The notes beneath the pieces were generated by a model, which was given only the letters and a program-made list of their open reading frames with translations, searched no databases and was not told where the DNA came from. Positions 2,431 to 20,848 of a DNA stretch of 20,848 nucleotides are shown here, in pieces. Source of the stretch: a virus; IMG/VR virus record IMGVR_UViG_3300020156_000086, positions 1-20,848 of that record. One strand, written 5' to 3'. Numbering within the stretch: position 1 is the stretch's first letter; each line of letters starts with the position of its first letter. Made by a program: the position numbers and the translations under genes.

Positions 2431-4258
2431 CGCCAACCCGCTGGTCGCGGGTTTCTTCGAAGCCTTCCGCCGCCCGAGCCGTCGCACCGTGACCGAGTGG
2501 GCGGACGCCAAGCGCATGCTGCCGTCGAAGGGTGCCGCAGAGCCCGGCAAGTACCGCAGCTCGAGGACGCCCTACGTGCGCGAGCCGATGGACTGCCTGT
2601 CGACCATGTCGCCGGTGCAGGAACTGGTGCTCATGTGGGCCGCGCAAACGAGCAAATCGGAGAGCGGCAACAACTGGGTCGGCTACGTCATCGACGACGC
2701 GCCCGGCCCGATGCTACTCGTGCAGCCGACGGTCGACAACGCCAAGCGCTACAGCAAGCAGCGAATCACACCGATGATCCAGGCGACACCGTCTCTGCTC
2801 GCCAAGGTCATCGAGAACAAGAGCCGCGAGGGCGGCAACACGATCCAGGAGAAGGAATTTCCGGGCGGCATCCTGATCCTGGGCGGCGCAAACTCGGCGG
2901 CCGGCCTACGGTCCATGCCGATCCGCTACCTGTTCGCTGACGAGATCAGCAACTGGCCGGCGGACGTCGACGGCGAAGGCGATCCGCTGCAGCTCGCCGA
3001 GGCCAGGACGGAGACGTTCGGCCGCAAGCGCAAAATCCTGAAGACGTCGACGCCGGGTCTCAAGGGCTCGTGCCGCGTCGAGACCGAGTACCTGAAGACC
3101 GACCAGCGCCGGTATTTCGTGCCCTGCCCGCACTGCGAGCACATGCACGTCCTGGCTTGGGCAAACTTCATCATCCCGAAAGGCGCCGACTGCAGGAAGC
3201 GACCGGCGGAAGCCTACATGGCCTGCCCGGAATGCGGTGGCGTGATCGAGGAGCGGCACAAGACCGACATGCTGGCGCGCGGCGAGTGGCGGGCAACCTG
3301 TCTCGAGAACCTGGACGAGACGCGCCGCGGCTACCACCTGAGCGCTCTGTACTCGCCAGTCGGCTGGAAGTCCTGGGCGAAGATCGCGCGCCAGTGGATC
3401 GAGGCGCAGGGCAACCCGACGAAGCTGCAGGCGTTCATCAACAACGTGCTGGCCGAGACCTGGGAGGTCCGCGGCGACAAGCCGAATCACGAGGCGCTTG
3501 CGCAGCGCGCCGAGGACTACGGCACGGATCCGCTGCCGGCTGGCGTCGTCCTGCTGACCGCCGGCACCGACGTCCAGCCGAACCGCCTGGAGACCGAAAT
3601 CGTTGGCTGGGGCAGCGGCGAGGAAAGCTGGTCGATAGACTACGTGATCACATATGGAAATCCGGATTTGGACGACATCTGGCTCCTGCACGACGCCAAC
3701 GTATTGCAGCGCGTGTACCGGCGAGCCGACGGCGTGCAGTTGCGCGTCGCCCGGTGCTGCGTCGATACGGGCGGGGCCAATACTGCGGCGACCTATTCTG
3801 CGGTCCGCGCCAGGCTGGCCGGCGGCGTGCTGCTCGGCACCAAGGGCATGCCCGGAGAAGGCAAGCCGATCATCGGCACGCCGACACAATCAAACCTTGG
3901 CAAGATCCCGCTCTTCCCGATCGGCACGTTCACGGCGAAGGACCTGGTCGTCGGACGCCTGAAGATCGAGCGACCGGACGGCGCGACGGGTCCGGTGCCT
4001 GGCCTGTGTCACTTCCCGAAGCGCTACCCGCCCGAGTATTACCGCGGGCTGACGGCCGAGGAAGTTCGGACCAAGTTCAACAAGAAAGGATTCCCGGAGC
4101 GCGAGTGGCATCTGCCGCCAGGCGCCCGCAACGAGCCGTTCGACTGCCGCGTGCTGGCGACCGCGGCCTTCGCGTCACTGAACATCCGCATCGACGAGCT
4201 CGTCGCCGCCATGAATGCCGCGCCTCGCGCGCGCGGCGTGCGCAACGCAGGCCAGTAA
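2417..4258 (+). CDS. Terminase large subunit (lambda GpA family)
   Basis: A 613-residue motor and nuclease that cuts concatemeric phage DNA and pumps it into the prohead through the portal. The ATPase half shows a deviant Walker A-like segment at about residues 74-82 (WAAQTSKSE), a Walker B at about 170-178 (RYLFADEIS) and a TSTP coupling motif near 210-213. A CxxC...CxxC zinc-ribbon-like pair (C237/C240 and C270/C273) sits between the halves. The nuclease half begins around residue 375 with GTDVQPNRLE, whose Asp (about 385) is a likely metal ligand, followed by CCVDTGGANT. The length is near that of lambda gpA (641). It overlaps the small subunit gene by 14 bases and is followed by a 243-base non-coding gap, the largest such gap between genes here. 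Confidence 0.95.
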   Translation: MPQPSANPLVAGFFEAFRRPSRRTVTEWADAKRMLPSKGAAEPGKYRSSRTPYVREPMDCLSTMSPVQELVLMWAAQTSKSESGNNWVGYVIDDAPGPMLLVQPTVDNAKRYSKQRITPMIQATPSLLAKVIENKSREGGNTIQEKEFPGGILILGGANSAAGLRSMPIRYLFADEISNWPADVDGEGDPLQLAEARTETFGRKRKILKTSTPGLKGSCRVETEYLKTDQRRYFVPCPHCEHMHVLAWANFIIPKGADCRKRPAEAYMACPECGGVIEERHKTDMLARGEWRATCLENLDETRRGYHLSALYSPVGWKSWAKIARQWIEAQGNPTKLQAFINNVLAETWEVRGDKPNHEALAQRAEDYGTDPLPAGVVLLTAGTDVQPNRLETEIVGWGSGEESWSIDYVITYGNPDLDDIWLLHDANVLQRVYRRADGVQLRVARCCVDTGGANTAATYSAVRARLAGGVLLGTKGMPGEGKPIIGTPTQSNLGKIPLFPIGTFTAKDLVVGRLKIERPDGATGPVPGLCHFPKRYPPEYYRGLTAEEVRTKFNKKGFPEREWHLPPGARNEPFDCRVLATAAFASLNIRIDELVAAMNAAPRARGVRNAGQ

Positions 4259-6339: not shown

Positions 6340-7616
6340 AACGAAACGCGATAGCGGCAGTCCTGTCGACCACGTGGGCGATCCAGCCGGAATGGCTGGA
6401 CATCATCGCCAGCATCGCCGAGCGCGAGCACGAGTTTGCCGGGAACCTGGAAGCGCTCGAGGCGCGCCTTGGACGCCCGCTCGGCAACACGATGACGGCT
6501 ACGACGCGCGACGGCGTGGCGATCCTGCCGATCGAGGGTCCGCTCTTTTCAAAAGCAAACCTGATGACGGAATTCAGTGGCGCCACGAGCTACGGCACAT
6601 TGGCACGCGACTTCACGCAAGCCGAGAGCGATCCCGCGATCAGGGCGCACCTGCTGAGAATTTCCAGTCCAGGTGGCGCGGTCGAGGGCGCCAGCGAATT
6701 CGCGCAGATGGTCGCCGCGGCGACGAAGCCTGTCTGGGCATTCATCGAAGGAAACGGCGCGAGTGCGGCCTACTGGATCGCCAGCGCAGCCGATCGCGTC
6801 GTCGCTGCCGACACGGCAATCATCGGCTCGATCGGCGCTCAAGGCGGAATCACGGTGCGCGACCCGAAGCCCGGGGAGAAGGCCTACCGGTTCGTCAGCA
6901 GTCAGTCGCCGCTCAAGAACGCCAGCCCGGACACCGAAGCCGGCGCGAACGAAATGCAGGCGCTGGTCGACGGACAGGCGCAAGTATTCATCGAGGCTGT
7001 CGCCAAAAATAGAGGCATTTTGCCAGCAGAGGTGATATCATCCTATGGCGCCGGTGCTGTATTCGTCGCCGCCGAAGCTAAGAAGCGCGGCATGATCGAC
7101 GAGATCAGCACATTCGAAGACACACTCAAAGCCCTGAAAGCGGAGACCGAGACCATGGATTTTAAAACGCTTACTGCTGCCAGCCTGAAAGAAAACCGTG
7201 CGGATCTCGTCACCGAGATCGCGACGGCCGCCGTTGCCGAAGCCATGGCCGGCGTCGAGAAAGTCGATGCCGCAGCCGTCAAGGCTGCTGGCCACCAGGA
7301 AGGCGTCGCAGCCGAGCGCAAGCGCATCGCCGAGATCGAAGCGCTGGCCGTGCCTGGCGCCGAAGCCATGATCGCCGGCTTCAAGGCCGACGGAACCGAG
7401 CCTGCCGCTGCAGCCATGGCAATCCTGAAGGCGCAGAAGGAAGGCAAGATCAACGCGGGCGCCGCCGGCCACCTGCAGAACCTGCAGAACACCGAGGCGA
7501 ACCTGAATCCGCCGAAGGCTGGCGACGGCAAAGACGAGCCGAAGACGGCCGACGAAATGGCCGCTGCGATCGTCGCGGCAGCCGGCAGCATCGGGACGAT
7601 CCAGGTCGCCAAGTAA
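6336..7616 (+). CDS. S49 (SppA/ClpP-like) prohead protease with C-terminal scaffold region
   Basis: A 426-residue protein with the plan of lambda gpC: an N-terminal serine protease (about residues 55-265) and a C-terminal scaffold-like part (about 274-426). The protease shows ISSPGGAVEGA at about 109-119, the likely nucleophile Ser143 in GASAAYW, and a probable catalytic Lys194 in SPLKNASPD, as expected for the Ser-Lys dyad of the S49 family. The protease would remove scaffold and tails during head maturation. The C-terminal part is rich in Ala, Glu and Lys, is probably coiled-coil, and can also be started separately at Met274 (see next entry). The ATG overlaps the portal stop. A pocket of rare codons around 7010-7043 contains a promoter-like sequence. 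Confidence 0.92.
   Translation: MKRNAIAAVLSTTWAIQPEWLDIIASIAEREHEFAGNLEALEARLGRPLGNTMTATTRDGVAILPIEGPLFSKANLMTEFSGATSYGTLARDFTQAESDPAIRAHLLRISSPGGAVEGASEFAQMVAAATKPVWAFIEGNGASAAYWIASAADRVVAADTAIIGSIGAQGGITVRDPKPGEKAYRFVSSQSPLKNASPDTEAGANEMQALVDGQAQVFIEAVAKNRGILPAEVISSYGAGAVFVAAEAKKRGMIDEISTFEDTLKALKAETETMDFKTLTAASLKENRADLVTEIATAAVAEAMAGVEKVDAAAVKAAGHQEGVAAERKRIAEIEALAVPGAEAMIAGFKADGTEPAAAAMAILKAQKEGKINAGAAGHLQNLQNTEANLNPPKAGDGKDEPKTADEMAAAIVAAAGSIGTIQVAK
7155..7616 (+). CDS. Probable internally started scaffold protein (lambda Nu3-like), nested in the protease gene
   Basis: An in-frame ATG at codon 274 of the protease gene has GGAG nine bases upstream (7142-7145). It would give a 153-residue protein, MDFKTLTAASLKENRADLV and onward, that is helical and Ala/Glu/Lys-rich, the composition expected of a head scaffold. 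In lambda the scaffold Nu3 is made exactly this way from within gene C. The codons just after this ATG (GAT TTT AAA) are poorer in GC than their surroundings, which favours open mRNA at an initiation site. Independent translation is inferred. Confidence 0.5.
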   Translation: MDFKTLTAASLKENRADLVTEIATAAVAEAMAGVEKVDAAAVKAAGHQEGVAAERKRIAEIEALAVPGAEAMIAGFKADGTEPAAAAMAILKAQKEGKINAGAAGHLQNLQNTEANLNPPKAGDGKDEPKTADEMAAAIVAAAGSIGTIQVAK

Positions 7617-11688: not shown

Positions 11689-12030
11689 ATGCGCGGCATC
11701 AATCGAATCACTGGCAAGGAACTGGACGGCATCCCGCATATCCAGCAGAGCATCCGCGACATCCTGACGACCAAGATCGGGACGCGCGTCATGCGCCGCG
11801 ACTACGGCAGCCGCCTGCCCGAGCTCGTCGACCATCCGATCAATGAAGCCACCAAGATCGAGCTATTCGCGGCCACCGCCGAAGCCTTGGTCCGCTGGGA
11901 GCCGCGCTTCCGCCTGGACCGTGTTTATCTGACGGCAGCAGGAGATCAGGGCAAGATTATTTTGACATTAGAGGGTAGAATCCGCGCTACCGAGCAAGTC
12001 GTCAGGTTTGAAGGCATCGAGATCACGTAA
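11689..12030 (+). CDS. Baseplate wedge protein (P2 gpW / T4 gp25 family)
   Basis: A 113-residue baseplate protein with gp25-like lysozyme-fold features: IPHIQQSIRDILTTKIGTRV, RRDYGSRLPELVDHPINEAT and WEPRFRLDRVYL. The MRRDYGSRLPEL region matches the EPR-type core of gp25 homologs, which start sheath polymerisation from the baseplate. I start it at ATG 11689 with AGGGG at 11679-11683; the frame is open further upstream but there only shadows the spike gene. An AT-rich, rare-codon pocket (ATT TTG ACA TTA ... AGA) at 11959-11983 includes a promoter-like TAGAAT. Its stop overlaps the next start by one base (TAATG). Confidence 0.9.
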   Translation: MRGINRITGKELDGIPHIQQSIRDILTTKIGTRVMRRDYGSRLPELVDHPINEATKIELFAATAEALVRWEPRFRLDRVYLTAAGDQGKIILTLEGRIRATEQVVRFEGIEIT

Positions 12031-12917
12031 TGGCGGGCGATTTTACAACGGTCGATCTTTCGCAACTGGTCGCGCCTGGCGTCGTCGAGACGCTGGACTT
12101 CGAGGCGATCCTGGCGGCGATGGTCGCGGATCTTCAGGCGCGTGATGCGACCTTCACGGCACTGGTCGAAAGCGACCCGGCCTACAAGGTGCTCGAGGTC
12201 GCCGCCTACCGGGAAATCCTGATACGGCAGCGCGTGAACGAAGCCGCGAAGGCCGTGATGCTGGCCTATGCTGCCCGGACCGACCTGGACCAGATCGGCG
12301 CGAACTTCAACGTCGAGCGCCTTGTCGTCGACGAGGGCGATCCCGACGCGGTCCCGCCCGTGCCGCCTACCTACGAAACCGACACCGCCTTCCGCGCCCG
12401 CATTCAACTGGCGCTCGAGGGCATCACGACGGCCGGCAGCGAGGGCAGCTACGTGTTCCACGGGCTGAGCGCTGACGGCGACGTGCGAGACATCCAGGCC
12501 ATCAGCCCTGAACCCGGCGACGTCGAGGTCTATGTGCTCGCCCATTCCGGTGACGGCACGGCCAGCACCGAGCTCGTGAACACCGTGACGGCCGCGCTCA
12601 ATGCGCAGGACGTGCGCCCGCTGACCGACAACGTGACCGTGCAGACGGCGATGATCGTCGAGTATTCCGTCGACGCCACGCTGGAGATCGAGAACGGCCC
12701 GGACCCAGATGTCGTGCTCGCCGCGGCCGAGGAGGCTGTGACGACCTACGTCGAGCAGATCCGGCGCATCGGCTACACCATTCCGCTGTCCGGCCTGTTC
12801 GCGGCACTTCACCAGCCTGGCGTCCGCAAGGTGACGCTGGCCTCGCCGAGCGCCGACGTCGAGATCGAGGACGGCGAGGCTGGCTACTGCGCATCGATCG
12901 CGGTGGCGCAGGCATAA
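12030..12917 (+). CDS. Baseplate protein J (P2 gpJ / Mu gp47 / T4 gp6 family)
   Basis: A 295-residue baseplate wedge protein. P2 gpJ is 302 residues. Family features are the N-terminal VETLDFEAILAAMVADLQA, the helical FTALVESDPAYKVLEVAAYR, then AYAARTDLDQIGANFNVERL, and ADGDVRDIQAISPEPGDVEV followed by VRPLTDNVTVQTA. The protein bridges neighbouring wedges and closes the ring around the spike. It starts one base into the W stop, so the two are coupled, and is followed by gene I after two bases. Confidence 0.95.
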   Translation: MAGDFTTVDLSQLVAPGVVETLDFEAILAAMVADLQARDATFTALVESDPAYKVLEVAAYREILIRQRVNEAAKAVMLAYAARTDLDQIGANFNVERLVVDEGDPDAVPPVPPTYETDTAFRARIQLALEGITTAGSEGSYVFHGLSADGDVRDIQAISPEPGDVEVYVLAHSGDGTASTELVNTVTAALNAQDVRPLTDNVTVQTAMIVEYSVDATLEIENGPDPDVVLAAAEEAVTTYVEQIRRIGYTIPLSGLFAALHQPGVRKVTLASPSADVEIEDGEAGYCASIAVAQA

Positions 12918-18463: not shown

Positions 18464-20215
18464 ATGCCTGAAACTTTCCTGCATGGCGTCGAGGTAGTCG
18501 AGATTACCGACGGCCCGCGGCCTATTCGGACCGTCCGGTCCGGCATCATCGGATTGATCGGCACCGCGCCCGATAGCCAGCAGGAGGTCAAGGCTTCCCT
18601 GCTGACCGGCGTCGCCGCCGACAACAACGCGCTGACGTTCACCAGCAAGCTCGAGGGCGAGCTGGGCAACAACACCGGGATCCGCTTTGTCGACCCGAAG
18701 GCGAACAGCGCCGCGCTGTCCGTGTCCGTCGTGAACGGCGACATCACAGTGAGCCTGGCAACCGACGCCGACGGCGACATCACGAGCACCGCTGCCGAAG
18801 TCCGCTCCGCGATCATGGCGAAAGCCGAGGCGCATGCACTGGTCAAAGTCGCCAACACGGGCGGCGGTGGCGCAACCGCTACCGCCACGCTGAGCACCAG
18901 CACGATCGGTTCTATTGCCGTGACGAACGGTGGCAGCGGCTACCTGACGCCGCCTGCTGTCGTGATCGCTGGCGGTGGTGGCAGCGGCGCGACAGCTACC
19001 GCAGTTCTGACCGACGGCGTAGTTACGTCCATCACGGTCAACAATCCCGGCACCGGCTACAGTTCGCCGACCGTAACGATCACGCCGCCGACTGGTGGCA
19101 GCAGCGGCGCAGGCGTTGTGTCGGCGTTCCGTCGCCAGTCCCTGGCCGACGGCCTCAACGATGAATTCCCGCTGAACCGTCCGGTGCTCGTCGCTGGCGA
19201 CGCGGCCAAGGCTGCCAAGCTGGGCGAGACCGGCACGCTGCCGGGCGCCATGGACGGCATCTTCGACCAGGTCGGCGCCGTAGTGATCGTCGTGCGCGTG
19301 GCCGAGGGCGAGGACGACGAGGACACGATCACCAACGTGATCGGCGGCATCAACACCGGCGACGACACCTACGAGGGCGTGCACGCCTTCCTTGGCGCCG
19401 AGAGCATCACCGGCTTCTGCCCGCGCATCCTGTGCGCGCCAGGCTTCACCAGCCAGCGCCCGGACGATACCGCGAACGCTGTGGTCGCCGAGCTCGTCGG
19501 CATCGCCGAGCGCCTGCGTGCCGTGATCATTGCTGACGGCCCGAGCACCACGGATGCCGACGCGATCGAGTACCGCGGCGACTGGGGCAGCAAGCGCGTC
19601 TACGTCGTGGATCCGGCCGTCAAGATCCGCAACAGCAACGGCGAGCTCGTGAACGAGCCCGCCAGCGCCCGCGTGGCCGGCCTGATCGCGAAGATGGACA
19701 ACGACCGCGGCTTCTGGTGGTCGCCGTCGAACCAGGTAATCAACGGCATCGTCGGCACGGCTCGCGAGATCGACTTCACGCTGGGCGACCAGAACAGCCG
19801 CGCGAACCTGCTGAATGAGCAGGAGGTCGCGACCATCGTGCGCCAGGACGGCTTCCGCCTCTGGGGCAACCGCACATGCGCCGACGATCCGAAGTTCGCC
19901 TTCCTGTCCGTGGTCCGCACTGCTGACATGATCAATGACAGTATTTTGCGCGCCCATTTGTGGGCGATCGACAGGAACATCACGAGATCGTTTTTGGAAG
20001 ATGTTTCGCAGAGCGTGAATGACTACATCGCGCTTCTAACTGCCGAGGGTGCGATACTGGGCGGGCGCTGCTTTCCGTCGCCAAATCTCAACACGCCGGC
20101 TGCGATCGCTGACGGGAAAGTGTTCTTTGATTTCGAGTTCACGCCCAACTTTCCAGCGGAGCACATTACGTTCAGGTCGAAGATCGTCAACGACTACATC
20201 GAACAAATTCTCTGA
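18464..20215 (+). CDS. Tail sheath protein (P2 gpFI family) with inserted domains
   Basis: A 583-residue contractile sheath protein; P2 FI has 396 residues. The N-terminus [20 protein letters not shown] followed by [10 protein letters not shown] is typical. The conserved core resumes at about 233 ([20 protein letters not shown], then [20 protein letters not shown]) and runs to the C-terminal domain ([38 protein letters not shown]). Between them about 195 residues are inserted. Residues 40-130 are a beta/alpha domain ([20 protein letters not shown]). Residues 133-220 are two copies of a Gly-rich repeat ([19 protein letters not shown] and [18 protein letters not shown]). Such inserts would project from the sheath surface. 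The last 90 or so codons (from about 19930) use ATA, AGA, CTA, TTG and TTT far more than the rest. Confidence 0.95.
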
Positions 20216-20848
20216 CTGCTGGACCGCTCGATCAGCCCCGCTTCGGCGGGGCTTTCTTTTTCCGCAAATATCCATTGATGCCCGTAGGCTGTCCGCTGTT
20301 CGCCTCTGCAGCATCTGAGTATCGGCGTGTTTTGCGCCTTTGGCTTTCCCTGCGTAGCGAGCCAAGCGACGGCCTGCATCGCGTGATCAAAGGCGCGCCC
20401 CGTCTCTACGCACTGCACGGATCTTATATTGTGAGCCTTGCGAAACTGCGCGCGGTATTCCGGGGTATCACGAACCGACTTCATCTTCTCGGCCATCATG
20501 CTCTTGAACTTAGGGTCAGCCCAACGGGTTCGTGCCTGGGCGGATCGCTGCTCGCGTCGCTCTACTGTCCACGCCTTCCGCTGCGCATCCGCGCGCGATG
20601 ATCGAAACGCTGAGCAGGATGTTGCTGCGTGATGCCTGGCGCGCACGTCTGGACGCTGGAAGGCTGCGGAGATAGATGCCGATCGTCTCGCTCGCGTCTC
20701 GGCTGACGGAAAATGTCCGCTCATGCCGTCGCCGCCGTCCGTGCCATTGACCAGTGGGCCAAGCCCAAGATCCCGTCGACCATACCGCGCAATAAGCTGG
20801 CGCTCGAGCATAGCTGCCTGCTGGTCGGTCAATCCGTCCTGAGCGATC
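20194..20848 (-). CDS. Homing endonuclease (GIY-YIG/NUMOD type), C-terminal part, runs off the window
   Basis: This minus-strand frame stays open to the window edge, so its 5' end is missing; about 217 residues are visible. The first visible residues ([20 protein letters not shown], then [13 protein letters not shown]) match the last part of a GIY-YIG nuclease domain, including the Glu-containing helix and the NxTDGGxG loop. [16 protein letters not shown] follows and resembles a NUMOD3 DNA-binding motif. The C-terminal [20 protein letters not shown] to [12 protein letters not shown] resembles an IENR1/NUMOD1-like helix-turn-helix module. This is the plan of freestanding phage homing endonucleases. 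The natural end of the family is near the HQW phrase; about 22 further residues run through the terminator hairpin and 22 bases into the sheath gene. It opposes all other genes here and probably sits between sheath and tube genes. An internal TTG (20832) is not the true start. Confidence 0.72.
20234..20261 (+). terminator. Rho-independent terminator after the sheath gene
   Basis: AGCCCCGC (20234-20241) pairs perfectly with GCGGGGCT (20246-20253) around the very stable UUCG tetraloop, followed by TTCTTTTT (20254-20261). It begins 19 bases after the sheath stop. On the opposite strand the same hairpin has no T-tract after it and lies inside the end of the endonuclease reading frame. Confidence 0.92.

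Follow-up and report, generated by a model that had tools for sequence, protein, structure and literature searches.

For the free-standing Seg endonucleases of phage T4, co-conversion of the sequence flanking the endonuclease gene is established, and these enzymes often cut within the neighbouring gene (PMC2988022). Endonuclease genes of phages have also been documented near essential genes and at the boundaries of exchange (PMC10448857), and the EndoVII-type HNH endonucleases include F-CphI of cyanophage S-PM2 (PMC6083498). In fungal mitochondria, mobile ORFs with a foreign C-terminus have been described in atp6 of Allomyces and in atp6, atp9, cox2 and nad3 of Glomus (PMC3630166). Divergence beside mobile introns, for its part, depends either on a template from outside or on repair that is mutagenic (PMC5378118).

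The window that we analysed is a whole virus record of 20,848 bases, whose right end falls inside a gene. Its structural genes are those of a contractile-tailed phage, a virus of bacteria. The tail sheath gene (18464-20215, plus strand, 583 aa) matches the Pfam families Phage_sheath_1, Phage_sheath_1C and Gp18_domIII_N as well as sheath families of PHROGs, and against it lies, on the minus strand, the 3' part of a GIY-YIG/NUMOD (Seg-like) homing endonuclease gene (20194-20848). We consider it probable that this free-standing endonuclease gene was acquired together with a co-converted 3' end of the sheath gene. The likeness to T4 SegA-SegG consists of an endonuclease gene of GIY-YIG type that would lie between two conserved phage genes and a flanking gene that would have been replaced towards the endonuclease (PMC2988022). 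The differences are that the endonuclease of the window is encoded on the strand opposite to the structural genes, that the tract is recognised by codon use and not by crosses, and that its cut site is a predicted one.

The sheath gene can be divided into two parts. The first 485 codons (18464-19918), which include the matches to PF04984 and PF22671, have core-like codon use, while the 3' tract (19919-20215), which corresponds roughly to the Phage_sheath_1C domain, shows a foreign codon use. The sheath also has an extra domain (18845-19130, residues about 128-222) with GSGYxxPPxVxI-type repeats; it matches parts of other virion proteins and is missing from relatives of 504 aa, and the sheath of another relative, L077, has a similar insert at a different place.

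The codon break was located with a scan that scored codons among their synonyms, with the core genes as reference, and thereby removed the effect of amino-acid make-up. The change point falls at 19919, 98 codons 5' of the stop (z 6.5), and none of 20,000 permutations reached a value as high (p about 5e-5). When segments were scanned over all the genes of the window, 19919-20167 scored 21.6, compared with a 99% null maximum of 11.3. The GC3 of the sheath falls from 0.92 (19130-19918) to 0.68 in the final 98 codons, and the rare codons AGG, AGA, ATA, CTA and TTG are present in the tract. The sequence-only reading had placed a switch to AT-rich codons at about 19930, over the last 90 or so codons; the switch and its rare codons are real, the position is now sharpened, and "AT-rich" applies only in a relative sense, since the GC of the tract is 0.52 versus 0.67 in the upstream sheath. 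The difference in GC3 at the sheath end is -0.24 in the window, versus a mean of +0.02 (sd 0.05, lowest -0.11) over 132 other distinct sheath ends, none of which showed a comparable fall. Furthermore, the relatives free of the endonuclease were checked for the same AT-rich end, and they do not have the codon shift.

The nucleotide divergence along the gene changes in the same region. Over 19419-19918 the window is 84% identical to the relative L002 and 83% to L003 (L002 against L003: 85%), but over 19919-20212 the values for the window drop to 71% and 75%, respectively. In this last interval the window is 67-75% identical to L002, L003, L004 and phage ZRG1, while these four are 79-86% identical to one another. 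The window thus moves from an ingroup to an outgroup position at the sheath break. The site patterns of triplets shift at the break in four tests with an outside reference (p 2e-3 to 8e-8), and a change point based on identity only, which gave weaker evidence than the tests on codons and on triplets, falls at 19945 (block permutation p = 0.06). A break at 19919-19945 is therefore present, and the low GC3 of the sheath tract is found in the window only, so that the two outcomes that would have spoken against the sequence-only reading, a shared AT-rich end and an unbroken divergence, were not what we found.

Most of the changes in the tract are synonymous, and half of the codons for identical residues differ. 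The dS between the window and L002 or L003 rises from about 0.5 upstream to at least 1.8, or saturation, in the tract, whereas that between L002 and L003 stays at 0.55-0.65 across the break; the dN of the window rises only from about 0.10 to about 0.15. There are seven departures from otherwise conserved residues in the tract and two upstream. The protein nevertheless keeps a normal sheath C-terminus, as had been claimed, with 82.7% identity to its nearest relative.

Regarding the endonuclease, the open reading frame against the sheath gene is real, as had been proposed. Its stop codon (20194-20196) sits inside the sheath end, where the final endonuclease codons run over the sheath stop, and its start falls beyond the end of the contig, leaving 217 residues visible. 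It had been called a fragment, which is correct in the sense that the end of the assembly cuts it and does not imply decay. The visible residues match Seg-like endonucleases of phages by tblastn, and they align with the second half of the GIY-YIG catalytic domain and with the NUMOD-type DNA-binding parts that follow it; the GIY and YIG motifs, which belong to the N-terminal side of the catalytic domain, lie off the contig edge. The conserved E and N of that second half, E15 and N34, are invariant in the alignment with homologues that bear GIY-YIG, NUMOD3 and I-HmuI-NUMOD-like domains. The visible piece gave no match beyond chance to Pfam, NCBIfam or the sequences of the PDB, and the GIY-YIG/NUMOD assignment therefore rests on the homologues. 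An intrinsic terminator-like hairpin identified by consensus match only (20234-20253, plus strand, 8 pairs with a T-rich tail) lies 3' of the sheath gene, within the C-terminal codons of the endonuclease; in L004, as in the window, the convergent sheath and minus-strand endonuclease genes meet at a hairpin of this kind.

The codon use of the tract resembles that of the endonuclease. Its log-likelihood is 17 nats better under a codon model of the endonuclease than under the core model, and on the same comparison none of 2,000 sampled core blocks of the tract length exceeded -1.2. A model built from the variable tail genes of the window fits the tract slightly better than the endonuclease model, which means that the match is to a non-core codon use and is not uniquely to the endonuclease.

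The position of the insertion is also informative. Of 130 distinct relatives, 126 have the tube gene starting at most 60 bases from the sheath stop; in the window, the sheath, normally followed by the tube, is the left neighbour of the endonuclease, and the right neighbour lies beyond the contig. Inserts at the same junction were found in L004 (1856-2470, minus strand, in a gap of 767 bases; L099 is identical), L029 (6191-6736, plus strand, gap of 528 bases) and L063 (3696-4248, plus strand, gap of 553 bases, with an in-frame stop as read from the sequence). All three are of the EndoVII/HNH kind: the L004 gene is related to phage genes annotated as endonuclease VII, and, as Pfam has no model for any of the three, those of L029 and L063 were assigned by eye from shared motif patterns. 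As in the window, the insertion point is directly 3' of the sheath stop, but the nuclease family is unrelated to that of the window and the three sheath ends show no break in codon use or identity. The presence of unrelated endonucleases at exactly this junction in three other phages indicates a recurrent insertion site. In addition, Escherichia phage ep3 (L231) contains an unannotated EndoVII-like gene (3001-3663) just 5' of a large tail gene, near the sheath/tube junction and not at it.

The abrupt break adjoining an inserted endonuclease, together with their common codon character, points to co-conversion with a diverged donor. Under this explanation, a free-standing GIY-YIG homing endonuclease gene would have entered the sheath/tube junction through double-strand-break repair, and the repair would have copied about 300 bp of the 3' end of the donor sheath, roughly the C-terminal domain, along with it, a single event probably moving both. 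The sheath gene would thereby have become a hybrid, its end now differing from that of the allele without the endonuclease; the predicted cut site is within or close to the replaced tract, and the hybrid allele would be protected from the enzyme.

The donor itself was searched for in several ways. The tract was searched for as protein in viral contigs and genomes, as DNA in phage records, and in 369 genomes of one bacterial class; these searches gave no match above 75% and no donor. The endonuclease had no near relative in viral contigs and in 398 genomes of one phylum (the genome search being run without a positive control), nor in eight related records (also without a positive control). In the phylogeny, the tract protein does not leave the small clade to which the remainder of the sheath belongs, so the "different phage lineage" proposed by the sequence-only reading as the source of a co-conversion tract can only mean a member of this clade with a lower GC. 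Such a donor, a lower-GC relative of the same phage clade, is plausible because the GC3 of the sheath spans 0.61 to 0.92 across the clade. That proposal is upheld in part: the break in codons and divergence and the endonuclease-like codon use agree with it, while the place of the protein in the clade and the failure of the donor search do not. Also counted against a co-transfer are the three junction endonucleases with unbroken sheath ends, the good fit of the variable-tail-gene model and the fact that the right side lies beyond the contig.

Among the other explanations, ordinary homologous recombination with another phage could have replaced the 3' end of the sheath gene along with all that lies to its right, with the endonuclease as a non-causal passenger. 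Tailed phages are mosaic, and other genes of the window have 42-76% amino acid identity to the same relatives with which the sheath shares about 80%; the three other junction endonucleases without a tract agree with this possibility too. We judge it unlikely, however, because the break lies less than 300 bp from the inserted endonuclease gene, the codon use of the tract matches that of the endonuclease, and a break of this sort occurs in none of the 132 other sheath ends.

A distinctly unlikely explanation is an assembly artefact, in which the metagenomic contig would join two related phages at a conserved motif of the sheath and the right-hand 930 bases would belong to another genome. It is suggested by the location of the break in a well conserved stretch of the protein, by the end of the virus contig 930 bases further on and by the finding of the joined sequence in no second contig. 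However, the reading frame is intact, the long shared exact word that such joins require cannot be shown, and the contigs with other junction endonucleases demonstrate that the arrangement exists.

We give only slight credence to the idea that the tract was recoded in place, either by selection for an uncuttable sequence or by mutation from repeated cutting and repair. The mainly synonymous changes, with half of the codons altered for identical residues, would fit it, and mobile introns are reported to have raised polymorphism beside them, for which mutagenic repair is one of the options (PMC5378118). Against it, the break is abrupt and not graded, the length far exceeds a recognition site, the changes at otherwise conserved residues number seven compared with two upstream, and other endonuclease-bearing relatives are not recoded.

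Two other foreign-looking codon patches of the window, both in conserved genes, served as controls. At the end of gpW (11920-12012), GC3 is low in relatives too; the AT-rich codons extend over the gpW end and the gpJ start (11920-12065), and relatives show them to a varying degree. For the patch in the S49 protease (6972-7061, thirty codons), the window has a GC3 of 0.47 and the compared relatives have 0.43-0.54; it is a conserved low-GC stretch 5' of a possible internal scaffold start. Since both patches are shared with relatives, they are old features of their genes, perhaps initiation regions, with a cause other than that of the sheath tract. A general codon patchiness of the genome was rejected as the cause on the same grounds, since relatives share the other patches and not the sheath tract. 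That the shift in codon use serves a function at the end of the gene, such as keeping RNA structure low before the next gene, is hardly credible: the gpW and S49 patches, AT-rich in relatives too, do look like such features, but 83-98 codons are too long for an initiation region and the GC3 of the relatives, whose sheath ends show no such shift, in practice refutes it.

A further version of the co-transfer, which we consider very doubtful, is that the endonuclease travels permanently with its own, differently coded sheath C-terminal domain, like the mobile ORFs of fungi. The likeness lies in an essential gene with a foreign, differently coded 3' end in frame, followed by an endonuclease gene. 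The carried sheath end would restore the target gene after insertion and make it uncuttable, and what is left of the native sheath end should then be found on the other side of the endonuclease gene, past position 20848. In fungi this native end, once displaced, persists downstream (PMC3630166), whereas the contig of the window ends inside the endonuclease gene. No convincing remnant of the native sheath end was detected in 20216-20848 of the window, nor was one of a sheath end in the gaps of L004, L029 and L063, with one weak match of 40 bases in L029. If true, phages would possess an equivalent of these fungal elements, comparable to a recoded gene drive that arose naturally.

Returning to the acquisition of a Seg-like endonuclease with a co-converted sheath end, the replacement looks like a fresh example of known gene conversion, and not like a system of a new kind. 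Homing endonucleases of unrelated families recur as insertions at the sheath/tube junction, and the hybrid allele lends itself to a direct cleavage test. Sequence data by themselves are enough to recognise this locus as one where a major structural protein seems to have had its C-terminal domain exchanged between phages through a selfish endonuclease.
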